From Sandaracinaceae bacterium (GTDB taxonomy: Bacteria; Myxococcota_A; Polyangia; Polyangiales; Sandaracinaceae), in contig JAHBWG010000092.1 in the NCBI GenBank assembly GCA_019637095.1, positions 1 to 33,892 on the forward strand: 33,892 nt of DNA, read 5' to 3'. The notes under the pieces were generated by a model. The model was given only the letters and a program-made list of their open reading frames with translations. It searched no databases and had not been told where the DNA came from. Shown here one piece after another: positions 4,357-30,767 of the stretch. The translations under genes were made by a program, and so were the position numbers. Every line of letters begins with the position of its first letter. Within the stretch, counting starts at the first letter, position 1.

Positions 4357-4396
4357 CGGCGCGCGCTCGCGCGCCGGCTCGGCGCGAGGCGCGGTC

Positions 4397-5608: not shown

Positions 5609-5611
5609 CGC

Positions 5612-6349
5612 TCAGACGCCGATGAAGAGGCGGTGGCCGAAGTTGCGCTCGAGCTCGCCCTCGAAGATCTTCGTGGCCGACGACTCGATGTCGTACTCGA
5701 CGCGCTTGAACTCGAACTCGCGCGTCTCGGTGTCGAAGATCGTGTAGCTCGCGCGGTTGTCGTAGTCCCGCGGCTGGCCGACCGAGCCGACGCTCACGAC
5801 GTACTTGTAGCCGTCGCGCAGCGCGAACTTGCGCGCCGGGAGCTCCTCGACCTCGCCGGGCCGCAGGGCGAACACCTTGCAGAGGTGGGAGTGCCCGATG
5901 AGCGTGATGTCGCCGAGCTGCTGGAGGATCGGCAGGCACTCGCGCGCCTGCTCGGGCGCGAAGATGTACTCGAACTCCTCGAGGCGGACCGGCGAGCCGT
6001 GGCAGAGCGTGACGCCCCAGTCGTCGAGGTCGTGCCGGTACGGCAGGCTCTTGAGCCACTCGAGGTTCTCCCGAGTCAGCTGCCGCGCGTGCAGGTCGAG
6101 CGCGTGGCGCGCGGCCTCGTAGTAGTACGAGTAGTCCATCCGGCCGGCGACCGCGGCGTCGTGGTTGCCGAGGATGGTGATCTCGGCCTTCTGACGCACG
6201 ATGTCGGCGCACTCGTTCGGGCTCGCGCCGTAACCGACGACGTCTCCGAGGCAGTAATACCGGTCCACGTCCTCCGAACGGTAGGCATCCATCACCGCGG
6301 AGAGCGCCTCGATGTTGGCGTGAACGTCGCTGAAAATGCCTAACCGCAT
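5612..6349 (-). CDS. Calcineurin-like metallophosphoesterase (YfcE/MJ0936-like)
   Basis: A 245-residue cytoplasmic phosphoesterase with a complete di-metal site: SDVHAN (Asp8, His10), LGDVVGYG (Asp36), LGNHD (Asn62, His63), TLCHGSP and LIGHSHLC. The spacing and the short N-terminal MRLGIFSDVHAN match the small YfcE/MJ0936 group of phosphodiesterases and predicted phosphatases. The ATG start at 6349 puts the first metal ligands at residues 8-10, as usual. Its own promoter is visible upstream (TGGACA, 17 nt, TATACC), followed by a 14-nt palindrome at the predicted transcription start. The upstream gene on the same strand (6448-9342) is 98 nt away, so it may be transcribed separately. Substrate unknown. 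Confidence 0.93.
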   Translation of the reverse strand: MRLGIFSDVHANIEALSAVMDAYRSEDVDRYYCLGDVVGYGASPNECADIVRQKAEITILGNHDAAVAGRMDYSYYYEAARHALDLHARQLTRENLEWLKSLPYRHDLDDWGVTLCHGSPVRLEEFEYIFAPEQARECLPILQQLGDITLIGHSHLCKVFALRPGEVEELPARKFALRDGYKYVVSVGSVGQPRDYDNRASYTIFDTETREFEFKRVEYDIESSATKIFEGELERNFGHRLFIGV

Positions 6350-6358
6350 GGGCGCGAG

Positions 6359-6372
6359 GAACCCGAGGGTTC
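6359..6372. promoter_or_regulatory. Palindrome GAACCC-GA-GGGTTC at phosphoesterase transcription start
   Basis: A perfect 6-bp inverted repeat with a 2-nt centre lies directly after the TATACC box at 6373-6378 and ends 9 nt before the ATG at 6349. It covers the expected transcription start. It could be a repressor operator or a short 5' hairpin in the mRNA; the sequence does not decide. Confidence 0.45.
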
Positions 6373-6401
6373 GGTATAGAGCTTAGCGCAGACGCTGTCC
6401 A
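6373..6401 (-). promoter_or_regulatory. Sigma-70-type promoter of phosphoesterase gene
   Basis: On the minus strand TGGACA (6401-6396) and TATACC (6378-6373) are separated by exactly 17 nt. These are close to consensus for a housekeeping promoter and stand out in DNA this rich in G+C. The start codon lies 23 nt beyond the -10 box. Confidence 0.65.
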
Positions 6402-6447
6402 TTCTTTAACCTCGGAGGTCGAGTTTCCCTTACGTCCGGTTCTGTGC

Positions 6448-9342
6448 CTACTCCTCGAGGTCCCCCTCGGGAGCCCGCCCCTCCACCTCGGCGTAGAAAC
6501 GCCGGGAGAATTCGAGGACCGGGTCCCGGCTCGGGAGCTTCTTGTCGCCCCGGGCGCGGTCGTCCACCGTCCGCGCTTCCTGACGCAACGTCAGGGCTTC
6601 GACGGCCATCGCGGCGACGGAAGCGCGCTCCTCTTTGGTGAGCTTGTCCACCTGCTTGTCGCAGCCGTGGTTGGCGAGGTGCGCCAGGGTCAGGATGTAG
6701 CGCTCGCGTGGCGCCTTCGGGTCCTTGAGCTGCCGCGCGATCGTGCGCAGGCCGGCCTGGCCGAAGCCGCCGAGCACGCGCGCCACCTCGCGCCAGACCT
6801 CGCTCTCCTCGGCGGCGAGCAGGTGCAGGAGCGGCACCACCGCGCGGCGCAGCTTGAGGTGTCCGAGCCCGAGGGCGAACGCCTGGCGCACGAACGTCTT
6901 GCGCGCGCCGAGGCCGTCGATGAGCGCGTCGCCCGCGTCGTCGCCGAGCTCCACCAGCTTGGGCACCACCCGGACGACCTCGTTGCGCGGCATCTTGCGC
7001 ACCGCCTTGCAGAGCCGGTCCGCGAGCGCCGGGTCCTTGCGCGAGGCGAGCTCGATCGCGGCGTCGCGCCGGTACTTCGGGTGCTCGAGCAGGAGCAGGA
7101 GCGCGTCGTTGCCGAGCTTGGGGAAGCTCGCGGGCTCGACCGCCGCGGTGTCGCCGCCGCGGACCTCGCGGATGATCCCGAACGCGTGGTCGTAGGTGTC
7201 GGTGTCGATCGAGAGCTCGGCCTCCGCGGCGGCGGCGAGGAGCGCCTCGAACGAGGCGGCCGCGTCCTCGCGGCTCAGCCCGCCGCGGTCGGGCCGCTTG
7301 GTCGTCTCGACGAACGCCTGCACCTGCGCGGCGGCCAGCTCGGCCGGGTCGAGCGCGAGCTCGAGGGCGATCGCCTGCTCGCGCAGGCTCGCCGAGAACG
7401 GGAGGCCGAAGCGGATCGCCTGCTCGAGGTGGTGGCGCAGCGTCCCCTCGACGTGGTCGGCGGGGATGCTGAGCCCGAGCAGCGCGCGATCCATCTTGTC
7501 GTGTCCCGCCCACGCCTCGAGCGTGTCCAGCGCCTTCTTCGCCGCCGCGGCGTTCGGCGCCGCCGCGAGCTCGCTCGGCGCGACGAACGGGTGATCCTTG
7601 GCGCGGATGGGCGGCGGGGTCCCGAGCACGCGGTCGGCCGCCGTCGCGAACTCCACCGACGAGGCGGTGCGCATCTTCCCGACGCGCTCGAGCACGCGCA
7701 GGACGTTGCGCTCGCGCTCGCCGCGCGCCTCGATCGTGCGCAGGAACCGGCCCGTCGCGGCGTGGAGCGAGACGCGGGCCGCGCAGTCGCGCCGCAGGTG
7801 CTCGAGCACCTCGCGCCCCGCGTCCTCGCGCGGGTCGAGGGCGGCGCGCACGACCTCGGGGCGACCGTCGGTCTGCTCGGCGACGGTGAGCAGCACGACG
7901 GGGCACTCGTCGACGACCGCGAGCTGGACGAGCAGCTCCGCGGTGGCGCCGGCGGGGAAGCGCTCGTCCTGACCGGGCGCCAGCTTCGCGTACATCCGCA
8001 CGCCCTCGGGCGCGAGCACCACCGAGCCGTCGGCGCCGGGCCGCAGGCGCGCGAACAGCGGAGGCGGCGGGACGGTGGGCTGCGGGCCGGCCGGCTCGGG
8101 CTCGGCGGCCGTCGCGTGCGTGCCCGAGCTCGTGGTCGTGGGCTCGGCGGGGAGCACGTTCGCGTGCAGGCCCGTGACGTCCTCGATCGGGACGACGTCG
8201 TCGAGCTCCTCGACGTCGTCCTCCGCGTCGTCGTCGTCCTCGATCATCTGCACGTCGTCCTTCAACGACGCGACGGCCATCTCCACGGCGCTCGACAGAT
8301 CGGACGGCACCCGGTCCGCCATCGACGCGGCGGGGGAGGTCTCGAGCGGCTCGAGGTCGTCGAGCTCCTCGAGCTCCTCGACCTCGTCGAGCACGTCCGG
8401 GACCTCCTCGACGACGTCGTCGGCGACGTCGCGGACGAGCTGCGCGAGGGCCTCCGCCGACTCGCTGTCGCCCGCGCGTGCGGCGGCGATCGGCACCGCG
8501 GGCTCCGCCGGCGCCGCGACCGGCGCGCGCGGCGCGGCCTCGACGCTCGACGCGCCGAGCCCGATCGTCCCCGACTCCGCGCGCTGGATCAGGCCCGCCT
8601 CGCGCTCGTGCAGCATCTCGAAGCGCGCCTCGAGCTCCTGCTCCTGGATCCGCAGGTCCGCGCGCGCCGCCTCCACCTCTTCGGAGAGCGTGCGCAGCTC
8701 GTCCTCGCGGCGCGTGACCGTCTCGGCGCGCGCGTGGAGCCGCCCCTCGCGCTGGCTCAGCGCCTCGTTGCGAACCGCGAAGTCCTGCTCGCGCTGCGCG
8801 AGCGCCGCCTCGCGCGCGCCGAGCGCACCCTCGCGCTCGCGCAGGGCCGCCTCGCGACGCAAGACGTCTTGCTTCTCTTTCTCGAGCTCGCCCGCCGCGG
8901 CGCTCGTCGACTTGGACTCGAGGTACGCGCGGAGCGCCGCCGTGCCGACGACCGTGGTGGCCTCCGCGGCGTAGCTCGGCACGGGCGAGTCGCGATCGTC
9001 GTCGAGCTCTCGGAGCAGCTTCGCGCGCAGCGCGAGCACCTCGTGGCGCAGCTCGGACGGCACGACGAGGGCGAGCTTGCGCGCCGCCGGGTCGTGGTAG
9101 ACGAACGGGATCGCGAGCGCCTCGCCCGTCTCGAACCGGTGGAGCGCGCCGCCGAGCGCGGGCTCCTTGAGGTGCGGATCGGCCGCGACGTCGACGACGT
9201 CGTAGAGCTGCACGAGCCGGACGAACCCGGTGGGCAACGTGAGGTGGATCGAGCGCAGGCGGGTCTTGCCGACCGCGCCTTCGTAGGCGGGCTCGCGCTC
9301 TTCGCTGCGCGGCGCAGCGCTCCTGGGCTCCGACATGGCCAT
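6448..9342 (-). CDS. Large coiled-coil, acidic and helical-repeat protein of unknown function
   Basis: A 964-residue protein with no signal peptide or membrane segment. In order: an N-terminal beta-rich domain (about 25-115) around SIHLTLPTGF and RLVQLYDVVDV, which I read as a possible degenerate CpXC-like domain lacking cysteines; a coiled coil (about 150-275) of repeated ALREREGALGAREAALAQRE type; an Asp/Glu-rich stretch (about 300-400) with long D/E runs; a Pro-rich spacer with VPPPPLFARL; and a C-terminal half (about 550-950) of alpha-helical repeats resembling HEAT repeats (LLLLLEHPKYRRDAAIELASRKDP, and ARKTFVRQAFALGLGHLKLRRAVVPLLHLL). It could be a scaffold. The ATG at 9342 or the one at 9336 may be the start; a GATACC box lies at 9355-9360. 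It diverges from the 171-aa gene over 50 nt. Function not recognised. Confidence 0.82.
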   Translation of the reverse strand: MAMSEPRSAAPRSEEREPAYEGAVGKTRLRSIHLTLPTGFVRLVQLYDVVDVAADPHLKEPALGGALHRFETGEALAIPFVYHDPAARKLALVVPSELRHEVLALRAKLLRELDDDRDSPVPSYAAEATTVVGTAALRAYLESKSTSAAAGELEKEKQDVLRREAALREREGALGAREAALAQREQDFAVRNEALSQREGRLHARAETVTRREDELRTLSEEVEAARADLRIQEQELEARFEMLHEREAGLIQRAESGTIGLGASSVEAAPRAPVAAPAEPAVPIAAARAGDSESAEALAQLVRDVADDVVEEVPDVLDEVEELEELDDLEPLETSPAASMADRVPSDLSSAVEMAVASLKDDVQMIEDDDDAEDDVEELDDVVPIEDVTGLHANVLPAEPTTTSSGTHATAAEPEPAGPQPTVPPPPLFARLRPGADGSVVLAPEGVRMYAKLAPGQDERFPAGATAELLVQLAVVDECPVVLLTVAEQTDGRPEVVRAALDPREDAGREVLEHLRRDCAARVSLHAATGRFLRTIEARGERERNVLRVLERVGKMRTASSVEFATAADRVLGTPPPIRAKDHPFVAPSELAAAPNAAAAKKALDTLEAWAGHDKMDRALLGLSIPADHVEGTLRHHLEQAIRFGLPFSASLREQAIALELALDPAELAAAQVQAFVETTKRPDRGGLSREDAAASFEALLAAAAEAELSIDTDTYDHAFGIIREVRGGDTAAVEPASFPKLGNDALLLLLEHPKYRRDAAIELASRKDPALADRLCKAVRKMPRNEVVRVVPKLVELGDDAGDALIDGLGARKTFVRQAFALGLGHLKLRRAVVPLLHLLAAEESEVWREVARVLGGFGQAGLRTIARQLKDPKAPRERYILTLAHLANHGCDKQVDKLTKEERASVAAMAVEALTLRQEARTVDDRARGDKKLPSRDPVLEFSRRFYAEVEGRAPEGDLEE

Positions 9343-16030: not shown

Positions 16031-16094
16031 GACGAGCGGGCCCCGCCGTCGGTGACGGTTGCCGTCGGGGTGCGCACGGTCCAGCATCGCCGCC

Positions 16095-17762
16095 ATGACG
16101 CGACGGCGCGACGCGCTTCGGTGGAACGGCTGGGGCCTCGCCGACAAGACCTTCGATCTGCACGGCCGCGACGAGGAGGTGTGGACCGTCGTGCGCGAGG
16201 CCCTCGGGATGAGCGCGCTGCCCTCGACGCCCGCGGTCCCGCTCGACGCGGTGGCGCTGGCCGAGCCGCAGCTCGACGGCGCCTTCCTCGAGCGGCTGCG
16301 CGCGCTGACCGCGCCCGAGCGCGTGCTCACGAGCGCGTTCGAGCGCGCCCTGCACGCGGTCGGCAAGAGCTACTACGACCTCGTGCGCGCGCGCGCCGGC
16401 GAGCTCCCCGACGCGCCCGACGCCGTCGTCTACCCGGAGGGGCACGCGGAGGTCGTCGCGGTGCTCGCCGCGTGCGCGGAGGCCGACGTCGCCGTCGTCC
16501 CGTTCGGCGGCGGCTCGAGCGTGGTCGGCGGCGTCGAGGCGCGGCGCGCCGGGCACGCCGGCCTCGTGACCCTCGACACGACGCGCATGGACCGGCTGCT
16601 CGAGCTCGACGAGACGAGCCACACGGCGACGTTCGAGGCCGGCATCTACGGCCCCGCGCTCGAGGCGAAGCTCGCGGAGCGCGGCTACACGCTCGGCCAC
16701 TTCCCGCAGTCGTTCGAGTTCTCGACGCTCGGCGGCTGGATCGCCGCGCGCGGCGCGGGCCAGCAGTCGAACCGCTACGGCGCCGCGGCCAAGCTGCTGC
16801 TCGGCGCGCGCGTCGCGACGCCGCGCGGCGAGTGGCGCACGCAGCCGTTCCCCGGCTCCGCGGCGGGGCCCGACCTCAACCACCTCATCGCCGGGTCCGA
16901 GGGCTGCCTCGGGGTGATCACCGAGGCGACGGTGAAGATCCACCCGCTCGCCGAGGCGCGCGACTTCGTCTCGTTCCTCTTCCGGAGCTGGGAGAGCGGG
17001 ACCGACGCGGTGCGGCGCATCACGCAGGCGGAGCTCCCGATCGCCACGCTGCGCCTGAGCGACGCGGAGGAGACGCGCTTCTACGGCGCGTTCAACGCGG
17101 CGCTGCGGCCCTCGAAGGTGCAGGAGGTCGCGCTCGACGCGCTCGGCGCGGTCGGCTTCGACGCGCCGTGCGTGCTGATGGTCGGCTTCGAGGGCTCGGC
17201 CGCGTCGGTGCGCGCGACGTGGCGCAGCGCGTTCGCGCTCGCGGCGCGGGCGGGCGGGCTCTACGTCGGCCGCGGCCCGGGCAACCGCTGGTACGAGCAC
17301 CGCTTCGAGATGCCGTACTTGCGCGACCCGATGCTCGACCGCGGCGTCGGCATCGACACGCTCGAGACCTCGACCTCCTGGTCGAACGTGGACCGGCTCT
17401 ACCGCGCGGTGACCGGCGCGATCCGCGGCGCGCTCGAGGCGGGCGGCCACCCCGGCGTCGTGCTCGCGCACATCTCGCATACCTACCTGTCGGGCACGAG
17501 CCTCTACTTCACGTTCGTCTTCCCGCGCGACCTCGACGATCCGGTCGGCCAGTGGCGCGCGGCCAAGGATGCCGCCTCGCGCGCGATCAGCGAGCACGGC
17601 GGCACGATCAGCCACCACCACGGCGTCGGCACCGACCACGCGCCGTGGATCGGGCCCGAGCTCGGCGCGCTCGGGGTCGACGTCCTCACCGCCGCCAAGG
17701 AGCGGCTCGATCCGAGCGGCATCATGAACCCGGGCAAGCTCCTGCCGCCCACGCGAGCGTGA
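16095..17762 (+). CDS. agpS: Alkyldihydroxyacetonephosphate synthase (FAD), ether lipid synthesis
   Basis: A 555-residue flavoenzyme of the AGPS family, which replaces the acyl chain of acyl-DHAP with a fatty alcohol to form the ether bond of ether lipids. Seen: RWNGWG at 9-14, LVRARAGELPDAPDAVVYPE (about 97-115), the FAD-binding VVPFGGGSSVVGGVE (134-148), GHFPQSFEFSTLGGWIAARG then AGQQSNRYG (201-229), ISHTYLSGTSLYFTFVF (about 459-475), and GGTISHHHGVGTDHAPW with the three catalytic-region histidines. The C-terminus DPSGIMNPGKLLP is typical. The ATG at 16095 is preferred over an upstream in-frame start at 16059 because the family N-terminus begins there. Myxobacteria make ether lipids, and M. 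xanthus has an AgpS homologue. The kinase-DsbA gene follows after 39 nt. Confidence 0.9.
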   Translation: MTRRRDALRWNGWGLADKTFDLHGRDEEVWTVVREALGMSALPSTPAVPLDAVALAEPQLDGAFLERLRALTAPERVLTSAFERALHAVGKSYYDLVRARAGELPDAPDAVVYPEGHAEVVAVLAACAEADVAVVPFGGGSSVVGGVEARRAGHAGLVTLDTTRMDRLLELDETSHTATFEAGIYGPALEAKLAERGYTLGHFPQSFEFSTLGGWIAARGAGQQSNRYGAAAKLLLGARVATPRGEWRTQPFPGSAAGPDLNHLIAGSEGCLGVITEATVKIHPLAEARDFVSFLFRSWESGTDAVRRITQAELPIATLRLSDAEETRFYGAFNAALRPSKVQEVALDALGAVGFDAPCVLMVGFEGSAASVRATWRSAFALAARAGGLYVGRGPGNRWYEHRFEMPYLRDPMLDRGVGIDTLETSTSWSNVDRLYRAVTGAIRGALEAGGHPGVVLAHISHTYLSGTSLYFTFVFPRDLDDPVGQWRAAKDAASRAISEHGGTISHHHGVGTDHAPWIGPELGALGVDVLTAAKERLDPSGIMNPGKLLPPTRA

Positions 17763-17801: not shown

Positions 17802-20800
17802 ATGAAGCTCGACCCCGGCGACCTGTTCGCGGGCAAGTACCGCGTCGAACGCCTCCTCGGCGAGGGCGGGATGGGTTCCGTCTACATCGCGGTGAACGAG
17901 CGGCTCCACAAGCGCGTGGCGCTCAAGGTGATCGGCGAGCGCGTGCGGGCCGACCCGGCGCTCGTGCAGCGGTTCACCCAGGAGGCGATCGCGGCGAGCC
18001 GGGTCGATCACCCGGGCACGGTCGAGGTGTTCGACGCGGACGTGCACCTGGGCACGCCGTGGATCGCGATGGAGCTGCTCGAGGGCGAGAGCCTCGCGGC
18101 GCGGCTCGCGCGGGGGCCGCTCCCGGTCGGCGAGGCGGTCGAGCTCGCGCGGCGCGTGCTCGACGCGCTCGGCGCCGTGCACGCCGCCGGCATCATCCAC
18201 CGCGACCTGAAGCCCGACAACGTGTTTTGCTGTCGCGACGGACGCGTGAAGATCCTCGACTTCGGGATCGCGAAGCTCGCGGTCGGCGAGGTGACCGGAC
18301 AGACGGAGACCGGGCTCGCGCTCGGCACGCCGTTCTACCTCGCGCCCGAGCAGGCCTCGAGCGCGCGCGACGTCGGGCCGGCCGCCGACCTGTACTCGCT
18401 CGGCGTGGTGCTCTACCAGATGCTCAGCGGCGCGCTGCCGTACGAGGCGACGAGCCTCGGCGACCTCGTGCGGCAGATGTACACGAGCGGCCCGACGCGG
18501 CTCGCGACGCGGGCGCCGCACGTGCCGGCGTCGCTCGCCGCGCTCGTCGACCGGTGCCTCGCGATCGATCCCGCCGCGCGCCCCGCGAGCGCGCGCGAGG
18601 TCGCGGACGCGCTCGATCGGGCCGCCGCCGAGGTCGCGCTCGCGCCGGCGCCCGACGCGTTCGCGTCGTCGAGCGGCGCGCCGCGCACGATGGCGCTCGA
18701 CGCGGGGGCGCTGAGCGCGGCGCTCGCCGGCAACCCCTTCGGCGCGCCGAGCGCCCCGCACACGCCCGGCCCGTTCGCTGCCCCGCAGGGCGGCGCCTTC
18801 GGCGCGCCGTCCCCGGGAGGCGCCTTCGGTGCACCGCAGGGCGGCGCGTTCGGTGCGCCGCCGCACGTGCCGACGATGGCGGTGACCGCGGCGCCGGTGC
18901 CGCCTCCGGGCGGCTCCTCCGGCCTCGGGATCGGCGCGCTCGTCGGCTGCGGGCTCGCCTTCGTGGCGATCCCGCTCCTCGCGGTGGGCGGCGTCGTCGC
19001 GCTCATGGTCGCCGCCCCCTCGGCGGAGGTCGAGCCGCCTCCGCCGCCGCCGGAGGCGATCGTGAGCGTCGCGGTCCGCGACCTCGCGCCGCTCGCGGGC
19101 GCCGACGCCGAGCGCGTGCGCATCGACGCCGACGGTGCGCCGGCGCGCGGCGGCGCCGAGCCGCTCGTCACGATCGTCACGTTCAGCGAGTTCGAGTGCC
19201 CCTTCTGCGCGCGCGTCGCGCCGACGATGGAGCGCGTGCGCGAGACGTACGGGGACCGCGTCCGCTACGTCTTCCGGCACAACCCGCTCCCGTTCCACAC
19301 CAACGCGCTCCCCGCCGCGCAGGCCGCGCACGAGGCCTACGAGCAGGGCGGCGACGCGCGCTTCTTCGCGCTCCACGACGTCCTGTTCGCGAACCAGCGC
19401 GCGCTCGACCGCGCGAGCCTCGAGCAGCACGCGGCGCAGGCGGGGCTCGACGTCCCGCGGCTGCGGGTCGCGCTCGACACGGAGCGGCACCGCGCGCGCG
19501 TCCAGCGCGACATGGACGCCGCCGCCGCCGCCGCCGCGCGCGGGACGCCCGCGTTCTTCGTCAACGGCCGGGTCGTGATGGGCGCGCAGCCGTACGAGCG
19601 CTTCGCCGAGGTGATCGACGAGGAGCTCGCCCTCGCCGAGGCGTTGCTCGCGCGGGGCGTCCCGCGCCGCCGCCTCTACGAGACGTTCCAGCGCGACGCG
19701 ATCGCCCAGCCCGCGCCGCGCGAGGACACGCCCGCCGCGCGGCCCCAGGCCGACCCGAGCGCGATCTACCGCGTCCCGATCGAGGGCTCACCCGCGCGCG
19801 GGCCCGCCGACGCGCTCGTCACCATCGTCGAGATCAGCGAGTTCCAGTGCCCGTTTTGTGCACGATCGCAAGCGACCTTGCACGCGATCGCCGAGCGCTA
19901 CGGGCGCGACGTGCGCTTCGTGTTCAAGCACAACCCGCTGCCGTTCCACGACCGCGCGATGCCCGCCGCGCGGCTCGCGATCGAGGCCGACCGCCAGGGC
20001 CGCTTCTGGCCGGTGCACGACGCGCTGTTCGAGAACTTCCAGAGCCTCGACGACGCGACGCTCGAGTCGATCGCGCGCGCGAACGGGCTCGACATGCGGC
20101 GCGTGCGCGACGCGCTCGCCGAGCGGACGACGCCGACGGTGGTCGCGCGCGACCAAGAGCTCGCGCGTACGCTCGGCGCGACCGGGACGCCGACGTTCTT
20201 CATCAACGGCCGCAACCTCCGCGGCGCGCAGCCGATCGAGGCGTTCGCGCGCGTGATCGACGAGGAGCTCGCGCGCGCCCGCGCCCTCGTCGCGGCGGGG
20301 ACGCCGCGCCACGCGGTGTACGAGGCGGCGACGCGCGGAGGGCTCACGCAGCCCGCGCCCGCTGCGCCGCGCGCGCCGCCGAGCGCCCCGCCCGCCGGCG
20401 AGATCCAGCGGTACACGCTCCCGATCCCGCCGCGGACGCCCTCGCGCGGCGCTGCCGGCGCGCCGCTCACGATCCAGGTCATCAGCGACTTCCAGTGCCC
20501 GTTCTGCGCGCGCGCCGTCGCGACCGTCGACCAGATCGAGCAGCGCTACCGCGGGCGCGTGCGCATCGTGTTCCGCCACTACCCGCTCTCGTTCCACGAG
20601 CGAGCGTTCCCGGCGGCCGAGGCCAGCGTCGAGGTCTACGAGCACGCCGGCGAGCGCGCGTTCTGGGCGTACCACGACCGGCTCTTCCAGAACCAGCGCG
20701 CGCTCGACGACGAGGGCCTCGTCGCGCACGCGGCCGCGATCCCCGGGGTCGACCCGAGCCGCGTCCGCGCCGCCCTGCGGGAGCGGCGCCACCGGGCGCG

Positions 20801-20945
20801 CGTGCAGGCCGACGTCGACGCGGTCGCCGCCGCGGGGATGAGCGTCGGCACGCCGAGCTTCCTGATCGGCACGCGGCTCCTCCAGGGCGCGCAGCCCTTC
20901 GAGGCGTTCCAGAGCGCGATCGACGCCGAGCTCGCGGGTCGCTGA
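17802..20945 (+). CDS. Transmembrane Ser/Thr kinase fused to three DsbA-like domains
   Basis: A 1047-residue fusion protein. Residues 10-275 are a Hanks-type kinase with all key residues: LGEGGMGSVYIA (19-30), Lys42, HRDLKPDN (Asp135), DFG (153-155) and GTPFYLAPEQ. A Gly/Ala/Pro/Phe-rich linker (about 311-352) leads to one membrane helix (about 374-404). Outside the membrane, three tandem DsbA/thioredoxin-fold domains follow, each with a CPFC active site and a cis-proline loop: Cys466/469 with GTPAFFVNG, Cys683/686 with GTPTFFING, and Cys899/902 with GTPSFLIG. Each domain also carries a FRHNPLPFH-type stretch. The frame is intact through all parts. The likely topology is kinase inside and thiol-disulfide domains in the periplasm, so the kinase could report redox state or unfolded client proteins; that is inference. 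The domains may simply act as oxidoreductases anchored to a kinase. Confidence 0.93.
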   Translation: MKLDPGDLFAGKYRVERLLGEGGMGSVYIAVNERLHKRVALKVIGERVRADPALVQRFTQEAIAASRVDHPGTVEVFDADVHLGTPWIAMELLEGESLAARLARGPLPVGEAVELARRVLDALGAVHAAGIIHRDLKPDNVFCCRDGRVKILDFGIAKLAVGEVTGQTETGLALGTPFYLAPEQASSARDVGPAADLYSLGVVLYQMLSGALPYEATSLGDLVRQMYTSGPTRLATRAPHVPASLAALVDRCLAIDPAARPASAREVADALDRAAAEVALAPAPDAFASSSGAPRTMALDAGALSAALAGNPFGAPSAPHTPGPFAAPQGGAFGAPSPGGAFGAPQGGAFGAPPHVPTMAVTAAPVPPPGGSSGLGIGALVGCGLAFVAIPLLAVGGVVALMVAAPSAEVEPPPPPPEAIVSVAVRDLAPLAGADAERVRIDADGAPARGGAEPLVTIVTFSEFECPFCARVAPTMERVRETYGDRVRYVFRHNPLPFHTNALPAAQAAHEAYEQGGDARFFALHDVLFANQRALDRASLEQHAAQAGLDVPRLRVALDTERHRARVQRDMDAAAAAAARGTPAFFVNGRVVMGAQPYERFAEVIDEELALAEALLARGVPRRRLYETFQRDAIAQPAPREDTPAARPQADPSAIYRVPIEGSPARGPADALVTIVEISEFQCPFCARSQATLHAIAERYGRDVRFVFKHNPLPFHDRAMPAARLAIEADRQGRFWPVHDALFENFQSLDDATLESIARANGLDMRRVRDALAERTTPTVVARDQELARTLGATGTPTFFINGRNLRGAQPIEAFARVIDEELARARALVAAGTPRHAVYEAATRGGLTQPAPAAPRAPPSAPPAGEIQRYTLPIPPRTPSRGAAGAPLTIQVISDFQCPFCARAVATVDQIEQRYRGRVRIVFRHYPLSFHERAFPAAEASVEVYEHAGERAFWAYHDRLFQNQRALDDEGLVAHAAAIPGVDPSRVRAALRERRHRARVQADVDAVAAAGMSVGTPSFLIGTRLLQGAQPFEAFQSAIDAELAGR
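18732..18857 (+). repeat. Short GC-rich repeats coding GGAFGAP units
   Basis: Three tandem GGAFGAP-type units (about residues 330-352 of the kinase fusion), preceded by related NPFGAP and GPFAAP units, are encoded by near-identical 18-24 nt stretches such as GGCGCCTTCGGCGCGCCG. They form the flexible linker between kinase and membrane helix. Such repeats can change copy number by slippage or recombination. Confidence 0.7.
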
Positions 20946-20979: not shown

Positions 20980-21903
20980 ATGGCGAGCTCCACCTGGTAC
21001 CTCGGCTTTCGCGCCGCGAAGGGCGCACCCCTCGAGGTCATCGGCGACGTCCTCGCGGACGAGGCGGACGGCCCGTGGACCGCGCGCGACGAAGGTTGGT
21101 GCGGCAACCCGCGCGACGGCTACGCCCGGCGGCGGCACCTCCTGGCGAGCGGGGCGCAATGCGTCTTGCGCGCCTCGGCGCTCCAGTGGGCGTACGGACC
21201 GGAGGAGGACGGCCCCGCGGCGACCGAGCTCCTCGACGTCGAGGTGGAGGCGGGCTCGGTCGGCGCGCGCCTCGACGGCTGGCGGAGGATCGCCGCGCGG
21301 CTCGCCGCGCTCGGGTACGCGGACCGCACGCTCGCGGGCTGGTCGTCGCGCATCGTCGACGAGGTCGCGGCCTCCGGCGACACGGCGCTCGCCGACGCGC
21401 TCCGCCGCGAGGTGACCGACACGCTGATCGCCGAATGCGAGGACACGTGGCACGTCGCCATCTCCGACGCGCGGCCCCACGACCTCGCCGCGGTGCTCCG
21501 GGCCTACACCCACGCGGCGGAGATCACCTCGGTCTCGTTCTCGAACCTCGGGCTGACCGCGCTGCCCCCCGAGCTCGCGCGCTTCCCGAAGGTGCGCTCG
21601 CTCAGCTTGTACGAGCCGGCGATCCAAGCGCGCGCCCTGCGGGGCTGGTCGTTCCCGGAGCTGACGGAGCTCGGCCTCTACGCGTCGGGCACGACCGAGG
21701 TCTCGGCCGACGACCTGCGCGGCGCGCCGGCGCTCACGACGCTCACGCTCGGGAGCACGCCGCTCCGCGCCCTCGACCCGGACCTGCGCGCAGCGTGCCC
21801 GGCCCTCGCCCGCGTGGACCTGCACGGGACGCCGCTCGCCAAGGACGAAGCGGCCTTCCGAGCCCTCGCCGCGCGCTGGCCCGACGTGCGGCTCGATCGG
21901 TGA
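20980..21903 (+). CDS. Leucine-rich-repeat-like cytoplasmic protein, 307 aa
   Basis: A 307-residue protein without signal peptide. The N-terminal 150 residues are unrecognised (MASSTWYLGFRAAKGAPLEV; GWCGNPRDGYARRRHLLA). The C-terminal half reads as degenerate leucine-rich repeats: ITSVSFSNLGLTALPPELARF, KVRSLSLYEPAIQARALRG, ELTELGLYASGTTEVSADDLR, ALTTLTLGSTPLRALDPDLR, LARVDLHGTPLAKDEAAFRA. Repeats of this kind usually bind proteins. It starts 34 nt after the kinase-DsbA gene on the same strand and has its own -10-like box. It converges with the DUF3427 helicase gene, 12 nt apart. Partner unknown. Confidence 0.8.
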   Translation: MASSTWYLGFRAAKGAPLEVIGDVLADEADGPWTARDEGWCGNPRDGYARRRHLLASGAQCVLRASALQWAYGPEEDGPAATELLDVEVEAGSVGARLDGWRRIAARLAALGYADRTLAGWSSRIVDEVAASGDTALADALRREVTDTLIAECEDTWHVAISDARPHDLAAVLRAYTHAAEITSVSFSNLGLTALPPELARFPKVRSLSLYEPAIQARALRGWSFPELTELGLYASGTTEVSADDLRGAPALTTLTLGSTPLRALDPDLRAACPALARVDLHGTPLAKDEAAFRALAARWPDVRLDR

Positions 21904-21915
21904 GACGACGACGCG

Positions 21916-24900
21916 TCACGCGACGGCCGCCGCGAACGACGCGAACAGGTCGCCGGGCAAGCGGTGCGCGAGCCGCCACGTGACCGCCATCGGCAGCTCG
22001 CCCTCGTGGTTCACGTAGGTCGCCGGCCCGAGGAAGTAGAACGCTCGCTCCTCGGCGCGCCGCCGCGCGAAGAGCATCACCTTCGTGCCGCGCGTGACGT
22101 GGCTCCGGTAGCGCCGCCCGGTCTCGCCGTCCGCGCGGGTCACGGACTGACTCTCCCAGTGGATCAGCTCCGCGCTGATCGCGTAGTCGCGATACCGCGT
22201 CGTGGGGGAGAACCGCCCGCTGGTCTTGTCGAGCGTGAACGCGAGCAGGTCCGCGCCAGCCTCTTCGGCCCAGTAGACGCCCGTCTGCCAGGGAGCGACC
22301 TTGGCCGCGCGCCCGACGCCGAAGGCGGCGAGGATCTCGATGCGCGTGTAGCGCGCGTGCACGACGAGCGGGACGGCGGGCGCGTCCGCGAGCGGGGTCG
22401 TCAGGTGCGTCACGCGCGTCGCGAGGCACGCGAGCAGCTCACAGACCTCGCGCCGCACCTGAGGGTGCCGCCAGAGGAGGTGACAGGCGGCCTCGAGCGA
22501 CGTCGTCTTCGCCACGACCTTGTCGAGCAGCGAGCCCACGATCATGCGCAAGAGCCGGCGCTCGGGCGCGCCCAGCGCGTCGACGTCGGGAGCGTGATCG
22601 CGCTCGAGGAGCGCGCGGTAGCCCTCGATGCGCCGCTCGTCGTCGACGTGGAGCAGGCGCGAGATCGCGCGCCGGAGCGCGACCTCGTGGGGTCCGGGCG
22701 CCTCGACGCCGAGCCCCGCCGCCTCCCGGAGGTCCGACCACGACCGTTTGCCGCCGTAGACGTCCTCGAGGGACAGGCCGCTCTCGGCGAGGAAGCCGGC
22801 GAGCGAGACTTCGGGACAGCGCGCGGCGTACCGCGCGAGCTCCTGTGCCTTGGCAGCCCACCGGGACGGGACGGCGTTGCGGATGCTCTCGAGGACGACG
22901 CGGGTCGCGACCGGGTCGAGCTCCATGTGGCAGCCGGCGGGCAGGAACGGGAAGCCCTGCTCCACCTGCGCCGCGATCTCCGCGCGCGTGCCGGGGAAGA
23001 GCGCGCCGAAGCGCCTGTCGAAGCGGAACTCCTCGTGATGGTGCCCGACGAAGTCGAGCACGGTGCACGTCGTCTTGTCGCCCCACTTGCGGAGGCCACG
23101 CCCGAGCTGCTGCAGGAACAGCGTCGGGCTGTCGGTCGGCCGCAGCATCAGGAGCGTGTCCACCGCGGGCACGTCGACGCCCTCGTTGAACAGATCGACC
23201 GAGAACACGACGCTGACGCGACCCGCCGCGAGATCGCGCAGCGCCTCGACGCGGGCGGCGGCCGGCGTGTCGGCCCAGACGGCGACCGCGGGGACGCCCT
23301 TCGAGGCGAACACGCGGGCCATGAAGCGCGCGTGCTCGACGCTGACGCAGAAGCCGAGCGCCCGCATCGTCGAGAGGTCGTCGACGCGCCTGCGGATCTG
23401 CTCGATCACGAGGTGCGCCCACGCGTCGTCGGCGGTGAGGAGGTTGGTCAGGCCCTCGACGTCGTAGCCGCGCCCGCGGCGCCAGAGCGCTCGAAGCTTG
23501 TGCCGGTCGAGCCCATCGCTGATGCCGTAATACGAGAACGGAGCGAGGAAGTGCTGATCGATCGCGTCCCAGAGCCGGAGCTCCGCGGCGATGCGCCCGT
23601 CGAAGTAGTCGAGGACGGGCAGACCGTCGGCGCGCTCGGGGGTCGCGGTGAGGCCGAGGAGCTCGCGCGGCCTCACGTGCTCGAGGAGCGCGCGGTAGGT
23701 CTGCGCCGTCGCGTGGTGGAACTCGTCGACGATGACCACGTCGAAGTGCGTCGGGTCGAGCGCGTCGAGCCCCGTCGCGGCGAGGCTCTGGATCGACGCG
23801 AACACGTGCTCGAAGCGATCGGGGCGCTTGCCGCCGACCCACTCCTCGCCGAACGCCGGATTGCGCAGCCCATGTCGGAAGAGGCGCAGGCTCTGCCCGA
23901 GAATCTCGCTGCGGTGCGCGACGAACAGGAGACGGGCGCGCGGGAGCGACGCAGAGAGGCGCGCGTAGTCGAGCACGGCCATCACGGTCTTCCCCGTGCC
24001 CGTCGCCGCGACGAGGAGGTTCTTGTGGTGCCCGCGGGAGCGGGCGAGGGCGATCTCTTCGAGCAGCCGCGCTTGGAACGGCTGGGGACGCAGCTCGATC
24101 GGGCTGAGCCACGCCGCGCCGCGCGCCGCGCGCCGCTCGTCGAGCTGGTCCAGGAACTCCGTGCGATCGTAGGGCACGAAGTCCCCGCTGTTCCAGTAGC
24201 TCTCGAACACCGCGGCGACCTTGTCGACCACCGGCGCGTTCCGCGCGCGCGACGCGCGGACGTTCCACTCGAGCCCCGTGACCTGCGCGGAGTGCGTGAG
24301 GTTCGACGAACCGATGTAGGCGGTGGAGTAGCCGGAGCCGCGATGGAACAGCCACGCCTTCGCGTGGAGCCGCGTGGTGCTCTCGTCGTACGAGACGCGG
24401 ACGTCGGCGCCGATCTCGCGCAGCGCGTCGATCGCCTTCACCTCCGTCGATCCGGTGTACACGGTCGTCAGGACGCGGAGCGCGCGACCCGCCTCGCAGT
24501 GGACGCGCAGCGCATCGAGGAGATCGCGGATCCCACTGCGCCGGATGAAGGCCATCACGACGTCGATGCGATCCGCCGAGGGGATCTCCCCGAGGATCTG
24601 GCGCCCCACCCGGGGCTCACCGGGAGCGTTGGTGAGGAGGGTCGTGTCGAGGAGCGGGGTCAGCGGCTGCTCGATGCGCTCGGGCCGGCCGTCGGGGAGC
24701 TTGCCGACCACGGCGCGCAGGACCTCCGCCGGCGCGACGGGCCGCTCGGCCGCGAGCGAGGCCGCGCTGGACGCCTCGCGCACCGCCTCGACCACCACGT
24801 CGACGAGCTTGCGCGCGAGGGCGGTCCCGATCTCGACGCGCTGCTTGGCGGGGAGCACCGCCAGCGCTCGCTCCACCACGCGCTCGACGTGGATCGCGAT

Positions 24901-25029
24901 GCGGTCCGCGGCCTCCGCGCGATGGAGGGGGCTCCGCTCGACGCCGAGCCTCGGGTCGAGGCGCGTGAGCTCGTCCTCGAGCGCCTCGGTGACCAGGGCC
25001 TCGTAGAGGCCGCGTTCCCGAGTCGTCAT
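21916..25029 (-). CDS. PLD nuclease-like - SF2 helicase - DUF3427 protein
   Basis: A 1037-residue cytoplasmic protein of the DUF3427 helicase group, normal in length and order. Helical N-terminus (1-120); one phospholipase D-type motif with RLHAKAWLF (His222, Lys224) and IGSSNLTHSA (240-248); SF2 helicase with LVAATGTGKTVMA (Walker A, 341-348), VIVDEFHHA (DEFH 435-438), GLTATPER and the C-terminal helicase motif LQQLGRGLRKWGDKTTC (about 637-653); then a long C-terminal DUF3427 region ending in a beta-rich segment. Similar proteins act on nucleic acids and are often found with defence genes. The single HKD half-site suggests that it dimerises or that the PLD part only binds. ATG at 25029 is supported by TAGAGT 8 nt upstream. 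No partner genes adjoin it; it stands alone on the minus strand. Confidence 0.9.
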   Translation of the reverse strand: MTTRERGLYEALVTEALEDELTRLDPRLGVERSPLHRAEAADRIAIHVERVVERALAVLPAKQRVEIGTALARKLVDVVVEAVREASSAASLAAERPVAPAEVLRAVVGKLPDGRPERIEQPLTPLLDTTLLTNAPGEPRVGRQILGEIPSADRIDVVMAFIRRSGIRDLLDALRVHCEAGRALRVLTTVYTGSTEVKAIDALREIGADVRVSYDESTTRLHAKAWLFHRGSGYSTAYIGSSNLTHSAQVTGLEWNVRASRARNAPVVDKVAAVFESYWNSGDFVPYDRTEFLDQLDERRAARGAAWLSPIELRPQPFQARLLEEIALARSRGHHKNLLVAATGTGKTVMAVLDYARLSASLPRARLLFVAHRSEILGQSLRLFRHGLRNPAFGEEWVGGKRPDRFEHVFASIQSLAATGLDALDPTHFDVVIVDEFHHATAQTYRALLEHVRPRELLGLTATPERADGLPVLDYFDGRIAAELRLWDAIDQHFLAPFSYYGISDGLDRHKLRALWRRGRGYDVEGLTNLLTADDAWAHLVIEQIRRRVDDLSTMRALGFCVSVEHARFMARVFASKGVPAVAVWADTPAAARVEALRDLAAGRVSVVFSVDLFNEGVDVPAVDTLLMLRPTDSPTLFLQQLGRGLRKWGDKTTCTVLDFVGHHHEEFRFDRRFGALFPGTRAEIAAQVEQGFPFLPAGCHMELDPVATRVVLESIRNAVPSRWAAKAQELARYAARCPEVSLAGFLAESGLSLEDVYGGKRSWSDLREAAGLGVEAPGPHEVALRRAISRLLHVDDERRIEGYRALLERDHAPDVDALGAPERRLLRMIVGSLLDKVVAKTTSLEAACHLLWRHPQVRREVCELLACLATRVTHLTTPLADAPAVPLVVHARYTRIEILAAFGVGRAAKVAPWQTGVYWAEEAGADLLAFTLDKTSGRFSPTTRYRDYAISAELIHWESQSVTRADGETGRRYRSHVTRGTKVMLFARRRAEERAFYFLGPATYVNHEGELPMAVTWRLAHRLPGDLFASFAAAVA

Positions 25030-26408: not shown

Positions 26409-29400
26409 TCAATGGAGCGTGCGATCGTCGACGTCGTCGACGGCGCGCACCTCCTCCGGTGCCTCTGCCGCGACGTGCCGGGCCGACGCCTCGAGGATCG
26501 CGCGCTCGACGCGCGCGGGATCCCGGAAGAGCTCCGGCGTCCAGAGGCGCAGGAGGTCCCAGCCCTGCGCCTCGAGCACCGCGGCGCGGAACACGTCCCA
26601 CTCGACGGGGTCGTCGGTCTTGTCGAACCGCGCGCGATCGCAGAGGAGCCCGAGCGTCACGTCGTGCGCGCGGCTCGGGTGGTGGAGCGCGACGTCGACC
26701 GAGAAGCCGTCGTTGCCCCAGTACACGTCGCTCGCGACGCGGTGCCCCTCGGCGAGCCGCGCCGCGAGCACCTCGACGACGCGTGAGGGCAGGCGCGTCT
26801 CGCGCACGTACGCGCCCGCCTCCGCGACCTCCGCGCCCGCGAGCCGCGCGGCCTCCTCGGCGTAGAGGCGTTCGAGCCCCTCCGCGTAGCGCAGGTACGC
26901 GAAGAGGTGGAACGCGCCGTTCGGCTGCCGCCCCGGCTCGAGCGGCGCGACGTTCCGGTACGCCTCGGGCGGGATCGACGTCACGAGGTGGATCTCGTGC
27001 CGCGCGCGCGTGACGAGCACGTTGAGGCGGCGCCCTCCCCCCGCGGTCCCGAGCGGCCCGAACCGGCGGTAGAAGCGCCCGCGCGCGTCGGGGCCGTAGG
27101 TCGTGCTGATCACGATGTGATCGCGCTCGTCGCCCTGCACGCTCTCGAGGTTGCGCACGAACAGCCCCTCGAAGCTGTCCGCGCCGCGCCGACGCCGCGC
27201 CGCGTCGAGCCGCTCCGCGAACCGCGGCGACGCGAGCGCGGCGCGCTCGAGCTCCTCGACGATCCGGTCGCGCTGCGCGAGGTTGAAGCTCACGACGCCG
27301 ATCGAGGGGGCCTCCGCGCGGGCGAGCAGCTCGGTCACGATCTCGACGACCTTCTCGGCCTCGCGCGCGTTCTGACGCTCGGCGTAGGTGCCGTGCACCT
27401 GCACGAGCCGGAGCGGCGCGTGCTTCGCGCGGTGGCTCGGGTGGCCGGGGATCGCCTGCAGCCGCGCGTCGTAGAAGCTCTCGTTCGAGAAGCCGATCAG
27501 GTCGGCGTTGCGCGAGCGGTAGTGCACGTCGAGGTACGCCTGCTCGATCTCGAGGTTGAGCGCGGCGCCGAGCAGGTCGTCGATCTCCGCCTGCTGCTCC
27601 TCGAAGAGGGCCTGATCGCCGTCCGCCTCCTCCGCGCTGCTCTCGACGACCGACGATTCGAAGAAGCGCGTCGGCGGCAGCTGCTTCGGGTCGCCGGCGA
27701 TCACCACGCGCCGCGCGCGGAGCAGCACGGGCAGCGCCTCCTCGAGCCGACACTGCGACGCCTCGTCGAACACGACGACGTCGAAGATCGGCGCGCGCGG
27801 GAAGATCTGCGCGACGGTCGAGGGGCTCGCCATCCACACCGGGCGCAGATCGAAGAGCGGGTCGCCGCCCTCCGCGTCCGCGCCGGCCGCGATCGCCTGG
27901 CGCACCTTCATCGCGCGCTCGCCGCGCAGGACGAGGCGGCGGCGGATCGCCGCGCCCGCGGCGTTGAGGCGCGTGCCGGTCGCGGCGAGCAGCCGCTCGC
28001 GCTGGCGGCTCGTCCACACGTGGCGCACGGCGCGCACGACGATCGCCTGCTTGTCGCGCTCGAGCTCGCGGTAGCGCCGGTGGTAGGCCTCGAGCCGCGC
28101 CCCGTCGAGCGCCGCGAGCGCGCCGTCGGTCCGCAGCCGCGCGCGGATCCGCGCGGCGAGCGCGGCCTTCTGGAGCGCCGCCGCTCCCTCCCTGGGCTCG
28201 GCGCCGGCGACGGCGAGCGCCTCGGTCGCGGCGGCGAGCGCCTGGGGCAGCTCCGCGAGGGCGCCGCCGATGCGCAAGACGTCTTCCACCTCGTCGAGCC
28301 GATCCGCGAGCGCGGCGAGGCGCGGCGCGACGTCGGCGCCGCCACGGACGTCCGCGCCGACGGCGTCGAGCCACGGCGCACGGAAGAGCCCCGCCGCGAC
28401 GAGCGCCTCGTCGAGATCCGCGATCGCGCGGGCGCGCTCCGCCGAGCCGGACAGCCCCGCGAGGACCTCGGCGCGCCGGCCGGTGGCGAGCGCGGTCGCG
28501 ATCCACCCGGTGACCGACGCGAGCGCCGGCTCGTCGTCGGGGGCCCCGAGCGCGGCGAGCAAGGCGCGGCTCCCGCGCGCGCGGGCGAGCAACGCGTCTT
28601 GCTCGCTCGAGTCACCGAACGCGTCCTCGTGCCAGGCGCTCACGATCGACTTGGCGCGCAGCGGCGCGAGGAAGCCCTCGGCGCGCTCCGCCGCGTCGGC
28701 GCCGGGCGGGAGGCCCAGGCGCTCGAGCACCGCCGCCGCGCGTCGCCGCCGCGTGAAGAAGAACAGGAACGCGTACCATTTGCGCGCGGTCGCGAGGTAG
28801 CTGCCGAGCACCGCGAGCCACTCCGCGACCACGCCGAGCTCGACGCGCTGCGCGCGCGCCACCACCGCGAGCTCGGGATCGGGCGCCGCCCGCGAGAGGC
28901 GCTCGATCGCGGGCGCGATCGCGTCGAGCTCGGCGGCGGCCTTCGCCCGCGCGCGATCCGAGGCGCTCGCCCAGTGCGCAACCACCGCCTCGTCGAGCCC
29001 ATCGAGCGCGCGCTCGAGCGTGGCGGCGAGCGCCGCCCGCGCGTGCCCCTGCGCGACCACGTCGTGCGCCGGATCGAACGGCGGCGCCGGCGCGGCCCGC
29101 GCGTCGCACCGCGCGCCGCGCGCCACGAGCTCCGCGACCGCCGCGCGCCAGCGCTCGACCGGCTGCGCGAGCCAATCCGCGAGCGCGATCCCGAGCGCGT
29201 CGCGGAAGGGATGGCGCGCGTAGTCGATCTTGCGCGCGCGCGCGAGCACCTCGTCGACCACGCGGGCGTGCGCGGCCGCCTCGACCGCCGCCGCCGCGGG
29301 CAGCTCCCCGACGGCCGCGACGAGCGCGGGCGGCGCGTCGGTCGCGAGCCACTCGCCGACGAGCTCGTGGAACGACTCGCCGCGGCCCTCGTCCGGGCGG

Positions 29401-30767
29401 GTCGCGAGGAGCTCGTGGTGGGCGCTCAGCTCCTCGTGGATGCGCGTGAGCTCCTCGTCGATCGCCTCGAGCGTCGCGAGCGCGCGCGGGTCCGGCTTGG
29501 CCTCGGCGAGCCCGTCGAGCTGCGTGCGGATCCCCATGTAGAGGTCGCGCTGATCGCGCTGCGCGTCGTGGACCACCGCGCACAGATCGGCGAGGCCCAG
29601 GTGCAAGAGGCGGTGCTGCACGACGTCGAGCGCGGTGCGCTTGTCGCAGACGAGCAGCACGCGCTCCCCGCGCGCGAGGTGGTCGCCGAGGATGTTCGTG
29701 ATCGTCTGGGACTTGCCGGTGCCCGGCGGCCCGTGGACGACGAGCCCGCGCGTCGTACGCGCGAGCCGCACCGCGCGCGCCTGGCACGGGTCGGCGAGCG
29801 TGACGAGGCGCTCCTCGCCGAACGCACGCCGACCACTCACCACCGCGGCGGGCGCCGCCGCGCGCGCGACGTCCTCGACGAGCGCGGCGCCGACGTCGAG
29901 GAACGCGCGGATCGGCCCCTCGGTGGGCTCGCCGTCGAGCAGCGCTTGCGTGTCGCGCACGAGCGCCTGGTTCGACATCGGGTAGAGCCCGAGCACGGCC
30001 GAGGCGAGCAGGCGCGGCTCGGGCGGCGCGGGCTCGTCCGAGCGCGGCACCGGCAGGACCGGCGTCCCCTCCCACGGCGCCTCGGGTGGCTCGAGCTCGA
30101 GCGCGCGGAACACCGCGCCGACGAGCTCGCCCACCTCGCGCCACGGGTCGTTCCCCTCCTCGTCCTCGAAGAGCTCGTCGATGCGCGAGCCGCTCTGCTG
30201 CTCGAGCCACGCGAGCAGGGTGGGGTTCGGGATGAGCCGCTCGCGCCCGTCGGCCGCGCACGCCAGCTCGACGCTCGGCCGGCGCCCGCGCTTGAGCGTG
30301 AGCGTGACCGGCACGAGCGCGATGGGCGCGAGCACGCGCTGCCCCTGACCGCGCGCGCGCGGCTCCACCGAGAGGAGCGGGAAGCCCACGTAGAGCGCGT
30401 GGACGCCGTGCTCCTGCTCGAAGGTCGCCGCGTCCTCCGCGATCGTGCGGAGCTTGCGGAGCACGGCCTCGCGGTGCTCGTAGGCGCGGCGCGCCTCGTC
30501 GGTCGCCCCCTCGTCCGGCTCGGACGCGCTCGCGACGCGCTTGGTCGAGGCCTCGGGCCCGAGCAGCTCCGCGAGCAGGACGTGCGGCGCGACGCCGTCG
30601 AGGCGCGCGAGCTCCGCGAGGTCGACCCGCTGGCGGCTCGAGTGCGGCCGGCAGCTCATCGCGGGCCCGGTGCGCATCGACGCGTAGAGGCGCTCGAGCA
30701 TCCGGGACAGGAGCGTCTGCCCCGGCGCCGCTGGCGTCCCCTCGCGCTCGCTCGTGGCCCCGGACAC
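26409..30767 (-). CDS. DUF4011-type SF1 helicase with C-terminal REase-fold domain
   Basis: A 1452-residue cytoplasmic protein. The N-terminal part (about 45-260) resembles DUF4011: FEQEHGVHALYVGFPLLSVE, then LAPIALVPVTLTLKRGRRP. SF1 (UvrD/Upf1-like, AAA_11/AAA_12) helicase motifs follow: VVHGPPGTGKSQTITNIL (Walker A 346-353), a long helical insertion (about 430-950), VVFDEASQCRLEEALP (about 1000), IAGDPKQLPPTRFF, YRSRNADLIGFSNESFY, LESVQGDERDHIVISTTYGPD and LNVLVTRARHEIHLVTS. The last 120 residues look like a Vsr/MTES_1575-type nuclease fold (GHRVASDVYWGNDGFSVDVAL; EAQGWDLLRLWTPELF), but the usual IECDG is LLCDR. The start is GTG 30767. It diverges from a kinase gene over 104 nt. Related helicase-nucleases occur in phage defence and genome maintenance; the role here is not proven. 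Confidence 0.88.
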   Translation of the reverse strand: MSGATSEREGTPAAPGQTLLSRMLERLYASMRTGPAMSCRPHSSRQRVDLAELARLDGVAPHVLLAELLGPEASTKRVASASEPDEGATDEARRAYEHREAVLRKLRTIAEDAATFEQEHGVHALYVGFPLLSVEPRARGQGQRVLAPIALVPVTLTLKRGRRPSVELACAADGRERLIPNPTLLAWLEQQSGSRIDELFEDEEGNDPWREVGELVGAVFRALELEPPEAPWEGTPVLPVPRSDEPAPPEPRLLASAVLGLYPMSNQALVRDTQALLDGEPTEGPIRAFLDVGAALVEDVARAAAPAAVVSGRRAFGEERLVTLADPCQARAVRLARTTRGLVVHGPPGTGKSQTITNILGDHLARGERVLLVCDKRTALDVVQHRLLHLGLADLCAVVHDAQRDQRDLYMGIRTQLDGLAEAKPDPRALATLEAIDEELTRIHEELSAHHELLATRPDEGRGESFHELVGEWLATDAPPALVAAVGELPAAAAVEAAAHARVVDEVLARARKIDYARHPFRDALGIALADWLAQPVERWRAAVAELVARGARCDARAAPAPPFDPAHDVVAQGHARAALAATLERALDGLDEAVVAHWASASDRARAKAAAELDAIAPAIERLSRAAPDPELAVVARAQRVELGVVAEWLAVLGSYLATARKWYAFLFFFTRRRRAAAVLERLGLPPGADAAERAEGFLAPLRAKSIVSAWHEDAFGDSSEQDALLARARGSRALLAALGAPDDEPALASVTGWIATALATGRRAEVLAGLSGSAERARAIADLDEALVAAGLFRAPWLDAVGADVRGGADVAPRLAALADRLDEVEDVLRIGGALAELPQALAAATEALAVAGAEPREGAAALQKAALAARIRARLRTDGALAALDGARLEAYHRRYRELERDKQAIVVRAVRHVWTSRQRERLLAATGTRLNAAGAAIRRRLVLRGERAMKVRQAIAAGADAEGGDPLFDLRPVWMASPSTVAQIFPRAPIFDVVVFDEASQCRLEEALPVLLRARRVVIAGDPKQLPPTRFFESSVVESSAEEADGDQALFEEQQAEIDDLLGAALNLEIEQAYLDVHYRSRNADLIGFSNESFYDARLQAIPGHPSHRAKHAPLRLVQVHGTYAERQNAREAEKVVEIVTELLARAEAPSIGVVSFNLAQRDRIVEELERAALASPRFAERLDAARRRRGADSFEGLFVRNLESVQGDERDHIVISTTYGPDARGRFYRRFGPLGTAGGGRRLNVLVTRARHEIHLVTSIPPEAYRNVAPLEPGRQPNGAFHLFAYLRYAEGLERLYAEEAARLAGAEVAEAGAYVRETRLPSRVVEVLAARLAEGHRVASDVYWGNDGFSVDVALHHPSRAHDVTLGLLCDRARFDKTDDPVEWDVFRAAVLEAQGWDLLRLWTPELFRDPARVERAILEASARHVAAEAPEEVRAVDDVDDRTLH

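Follow-up and report, generated by a model that had tools for sequence, protein, structure and literature searches.

How should a single gene be read that encodes a Ser/Thr kinase followed by three DsbA-like domains, and is catalysis by the kinase part of what such a combination does? The question is raised by one locus of a Sandaracinaceae bacterium, analyzed here in a stretch of 33,892 nucleotides (the window), which forms a single contig of a draft genome of 9.25 Mb with at least 151 matches, mostly kinases. The organism belongs to Polyangiales (Myxococcota), since G007, a genome of the same family, contains DNA identical to that recorded for Sandaracinaceae bacterium isolate SSF7. An initial annotation had described a receptor kinase with three intact CPFC sites, had regarded the architecture as undescribed and had concluded that selection keeps these sites.

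Kinase, membrane helix and DsbA domains in one frame

The gene (17802..20945, forward strand) starts with ATG and encodes 1047 aa in the order kinase, linker, transmembrane helix and three DsbA domains, with no internal stop (ORF and Pfam; third-position GC 0.97). Third-position GC lies between 0.93 and 0.99 in each 300-base block, hence the frame is coding over its full length, and it is intact as annotated.

A Hanks-type Ser/Thr kinase domain covers residues 13–264 (17838..18593; Pfam Pkinase, E 8e-45). In an alignment with 108 kinase domains we located the VAIK lysine K42 (17925..17927), the HRD catalytic aspartate D135 (18204..18206) and the DFG aspartate D153 (18258..18260); E61 of alphaC and N140 are also there, so that the kinase is complete, as had been claimed. 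None of the residue losses that mark a pseudokinase was found in this protein, and with every residue for catalysis it is predicted to be a competent kinase. The nearest solved structures are mycobacterial PknA and PknB, the PknE kinase (2h34) being matched as well. The nearest kinases are myxobacterial paralogues, the closest of them encoded in the same genome, and trees without a PknE row grouped the window kinase with myxobacterial kinases. One paralogue shares about 60% identity in the kinase domain and carries a different ectodomain, which indicates that the kinase is a swappable module. Matches to PADLOC PD-T4-6 were rejected as a sign of a defence role: they are generic kinase matches, also obtained on an unrelated kinase of the window.

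The kinase is followed by a Pro/Gly-rich, low-complexity juxtamembrane linker with FGAP-type repeats (residues about 281–372; 18642..18917) and by the strongest hydrophobic segment of the protein (residues 385–403; 18954..19010; hydropathy peak 2.64, KD), in agreement with the single membrane helix annotated near 374–404. Few charges flank this helix, which weakens the topology call; judged from hydropathy and the need of the kinase for ATP, the kinase would be cytosolic and the DsbA domains periplasmic.

In Pfam searches, three stretches of the protein matched Thioredoxin_4 (8e-73) and three matched DSBA (5e-54). The first DsbA domain spans residues 447–607 (19140..19622; CPFC 466–469, cis-Pro 583; Pfam and model), the second lies at 19785..20264 (CPFC 683–686, cis-Pro 797; model) and the third at 20436..20927 (CPFC 899–902, cis-Pro 1018; model and identity to an orthologue), all on the forward strand; the GTP motifs (Thr-cis-Pro) are at 581, 795 and 1016. 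Cysteines occupy positions 143, 144, 252, 383, 466, 469, 683, 686, 899 and 902 of the protein, and those of the ectodomain are exactly six, every one within a CPFC, which bears out the six intact cysteines of the annotation. An AlphaFold2 model of the ectodomain built from 38 aligned sequences (pLDDT 92) shows the thioredoxin/DsbA fold three times, each complete and with helical insertions. The features of a DsbA/Thioredoxin_4 domain (CXXC, cis-Pro and a thioredoxin fold with helical insertion) are therefore found three times, as initially described. The best single-domain structure matches were BdbD, a corynebacterial DsbA and ScsC. The top Foldseek match, UGGT, was discarded: its rmsd was about 26 Å and it shares only tandem thioredoxin folds. 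A search of the window's genome for a VKOR partner found none.

The gene is flanked on the same strand by an upstream FAD-linked oxidase gene (16059..17762) and a downstream gene with weak LRR matches (20980..21903), both identified by Pfam; in genome G002, the first is kept as a syntenic neighbour (74% identity) and the second is not conserved. Other genes of the window include one on the reverse strand (21916–25029) with PLD nuclease, helicase and DUF3427 domains and a near full-length match to PADLOC mREase_IV PDLC03659 (858 bits), whose product is likely a type IV restriction enzyme. Another reverse-strand gene (26409–30767; DUF4011, AAA_11/12 helicase and MTES_1575 nuclease) gives matches to PDC-S37 and Hhe, both candidate defence families, and LuxE-like and LuxC-like acyl synthetase/reductase genes stand side by side at 2146–5608 on the forward strand.

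Known relatives and distribution of the fusion

The view that no such architecture had been described did not hold. In Mycobacterium tuberculosis, PknE (Rv1743) crosses the membrane once and joins a Ser/Thr kinase to a DsbA-like domain outside the cytoplasm (PMC1262709, PMC3792642). Both proteins have an N-terminal Hanks-type kinase, one transmembrane helix and then a DsbA-like part with CXXC and Thr-cis-Pro, the side that each part faces in the window protein being deduced. Since PknE shares this order of parts with a single DsbA, the kinase-DsbA fusion is not new in kind. PknE, which is linked to nitric-oxide stress and is reported only in pathogenic mycobacteria, has one DsbA domain with CPPC (PMC3792642), whereas the window protein has three, which belong to a tandem-DsbA family of myxobacteria and each carry CPFC. 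A literature search that covered few subscription papers returned no account of kinases with three DsbA domains or of pseudokinases fused to DsbA. PASTA-domain kinases of the PknB/Stk1 type have a homologous kinase domain and the same single-pass layout; however, the window protein scores 250 against a cut-off of 450 with their model NF033483, and no PASTA repeats were found by Pfam.

Of 184 genomes of the order, 170 encode tandem DsbA proteins, almost all of which lack a kinase, and the ectodomain is thus an old, clade-wide module. These proteins usually have three domains, sometimes four and once eight (range one to eight copies; the eight repeats lie in one ORF, L146 4518–9620). A three-domain paralogue in the window's own genome is 54% identical to the window ectodomain and carries an N-terminal anchor helix. 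Conservation of CPFC across relatives, a comparison called for by the initial annotation, was high: 173 of about 204 homologous domains have CPFC and 14 CPYC, which indicates strong constraint on the redox site throughout the family. The nearest named model for these tandem proteins of Myxococcota is NF041057 (Rcas_1661 family thioredoxin-like (seleno)lipoprotein), with which the whole window protein scores 266.8, summed over three stretches, against a cut-off of 190. The window protein has the same DsbA domains in tandem and differs from these relatives by its kinase; in place of the N-terminal signal of a secreted lipoprotein it starts with the kinase, its transmembrane helix being internal.

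The same module occurs in another fusion of the window's genome (L066 2471–3754, contig C175), in which an unassigned N-terminal domain, a Pro-rich linker and a transmembrane helix precede one DsbA domain 65–66% identical to window domain 3. Kinase-free triple-DsbA genes also have orthologous kinases alongside in several Polyangiales (among them L073, L074, L103, L111, L113, L122, L131, L135, L141 and L143), in clusters of 10 and 6 loci: a protein with a double kinase domain adjoins the DsbA gene in 10, and a second kinase lies on the opposite side in 6. Kinase density near DsbA genes is 1.7 per 61 kb, compared to about 1 per 61 kb in the window's own genome, a modest increase that lends weak support to a kinase-DsbA link.

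Fusions to a kinase are rare. Searches of 57 genomes with a DsbA-based query and of 184 genomes with a fusion profile, few candidates being scored per genome, identified at least eight in six lineages of Polyangiales: the window, G002 (L049), G014 (L062), three species of genus g37 (L083, L192, L193), G181 (L218) and G128 (L231). This provides the genome count that had been proposed at the outset. Among the matches listed for 189 genomes of the phylum, none outside the order spanned the kinase, and inspection of long open frames in L050–L052, L064, L069 and others found no fused kinase. All eight fusions have one main transmembrane segment by hydropathy, and those of L049 and L062 have a linker of the same Pro/Gly-rich kind as the window.

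The fusion in G002 is the positional orthologue of the window gene, a Lon-substrate-binding gene, RibA and the FAD-oxidase lying upstream in both. It carries two DsbA domains, window domain 2 being without counterpart. Identity between the two proteins is 42% for the kinase, 70% for DsbA1 and 56% for window DsbA3 and orthologue DsbA2; the lower value of the kinase indicates relaxed or changed constraint on it in at least one of them. The window genome (G000) is a draft of 197 contigs with 4% contamination and the fusion is rare, as would suit an assembly chimera or a chance joining of a kinase gene with a tandem DsbA gene. The presence of the fused architecture at the syntenic position of a related genome argues against this, as do the uniform codon-position GC across the kinase/DsbA junction, the same linker-helix layout in other families and the location of the nearest kinase paralogue in the same genome. 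We consider a chimera very improbable and in practice refuted.

Catalytic residues and selection in the fused kinases

We then compared the five catalytic positions (K, E, D, N, D) among the fusions. All are kept in only one of eight, the window (KEDND). The corresponding states are RRDRG in L049, EEGDD in L062, KEDGF in L218 and EAEND in L231, while the g37 kinases are wholly degenerate (--LLG): different residues were lost in the other seven, and most of their CXXC sites were kept. Judged from these residues, catalysis is lost in different ways among the fusions. For comparison, kinases not fused to DsbA were taken from these genomes and loci by similarity to an intact kinase; 100 of 101 keep the Lys, HRD Asp and DFG Asp (47/47 in the window's own genome), and loss differed between fused and unfused kinases with p = 2e-9 counted by proteins and 3e-7 by lineages (Fisher's exact test). 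The DsbA query, which is blind to the state of the kinase, yielded the first three pseudokinase fusions, and two fused pseudokinases (245 and 199 bits) score within the range of own-genome kinases (lowest 192 bits).

The initial annotation had made the function of the combination depend on orthologues keeping their CPFC sites and the kinase Asp. The outcome is divided. The G002 orthologue retains both its CPFC sites, whereas its VAIK Lys, catalytic Asn and DFG Asp are gone; in the other fusions, the catalytic Asp is lost in some and most CXXC sites are kept. Kinase activity is thus not conserved among these fusions, and the activity predicted for the window kinase has no backing from orthologues. 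Likewise, the argument from intactness to selection, invalid from one sequence, was upheld by comparison only for the DsbA sites. Lacking canonical catalytic residues, the other seven fusions resemble the bacterial Ser/Thr pseudokinase families ActPs, CP1, DYD and DLHK (PMC12599244), unlike the window protein, whose kinase site is intact; the 2025 review of these families mentions neither DsbA nor thioredoxin (PMC12599244).

Kinase trees were built in a quick version of 109 rows and a careful one of 40 rows. The fused kinases formed one clade in 0% of 200 bootstrap trees, and well-supported branches force at least two changes of the fused/unfused label; kinase recruitment is therefore likely to have happened more than once. 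A grouping of the window and L049 kinases is compatible with the trees (support 77/53).

Genus g37 provides a closer view of a fused pseudokinase. In all three species the pseudokinase-DsbA gene is followed, as next open frame, by the gene of an active multi-TM kinase (pairs at L221 5029–9252, L219 2429–6646 and L220 1998–6245). In L221 the pseudokinase gene covers 5029–7596 and the kinase gene 7600–9252. One redox site is lost, as CPHT replaces the CXXC of the first DsbA domain. In this one genus in which selection was assessed, dN/dS (NG86) is 0.24 for the pseudokinase, 0.125 for the CPFC-bearing DsbA2 and 0.045 for the downstream active kinase: the pseudokinase is under purifying selection, less strong than that on DsbA2 or the neighbouring kinase. 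Loss of catalysis hence does not show the combination to be useless. The g37 pseudokinase is modelled as a kinase fold (pLDDT 91) with Foldseek matches to PknI and PknA; the intact window kinase was part of the alignment and may favour this fold. Around L049, L062, L218 and L231, no neighbouring kinase was found in the stretches examined.

Possible roles of the fusion protein

We favour, with a probability of about one half, the reading that the window protein is a catalytic, redox- or client-responsive, single-pass receptor Ser/Thr kinase of the inner membrane. The periplasmic DsbA domains would act on exported proteins or redox couples, or be oxidised or reduced by these; whether their disulphides are formed and whether a client is bound may alter protein pairing or posture across the membrane, and this in turn could change kinase autophosphorylation, a scheme that could hold for PknE too. 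The initial proposal that thiol state or misfolded proteins are sensed is plausible, and we infer that the redox state of the DsbA domains may control the kinase. In other lineages the fused kinase fold would be retained as a non-catalytic relay, acting in g37 probably via the active kinase encoded next door.

The same losses of catalytic residues can be read otherwise. If the DsbA domains were the working part, as membrane-tethered disulphide catalysts, the kinase would serve as a passenger or an anchor and would have ceased to signal. Loss of kinase residues in seven of eight fusions with most CXXC sites kept, the lower identity of the kinase than of the DsbA domains between syntenic orthologues, and the prevalence of tandem DsbA proteins without a kinase fit such a role; we nevertheless find it unlikely, as the window kinase keeps every motif and the g37 pseudokinase keeps both its predicted fold and purifying selection. 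Quite unlikely, in our estimate, is a further reading in which the kinase fold in DsbA fusions serves generally as a non-catalytic relay that would bind and control another, active kinase; the window protein would then retain the catalytic state of the ancestor or stem from recruitment of an active kinase. The lineage-specific residue losses, the absence of a single clade of fused kinases and the active kinase gene directly downstream in all three g37 species speak for it; the lineages are few, however, and no kinase adjoins the four fusions named above in the stretches examined.

Under the favoured reading of a catalytic receptor in the window, its relatives most likely became pseudokinase receptors, signalling by both kinds being putative. 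As all other fusions found in the order have a broken kinase site, the joined kinase may often be a non-catalytic signalling part. A broader scenario, to which we give tentative weight short of an even chance, is that Polyangiales would have joined kinases to tandem DsbA repeatedly and, except in one lineage, would then have lost catalysis but neither the kinase fold nor most redox sites, giving convergent thiol-redox pseudokinase receptors that control separate kinases, with the window as the catalytic exception. A working receptor of the window type would tie disulphide chemistry of the envelope to Ser/Thr phosphorylation, in bacteria whose kinomes are very large. One intact and several independently inactivated kinases, joined to like ectodomains, would form a natural series for the role of a receptor kinase without catalysis, and the g37 pair of a pseudokinase-DsbA receptor and an active kinase would make this question testable with two purified proteins.
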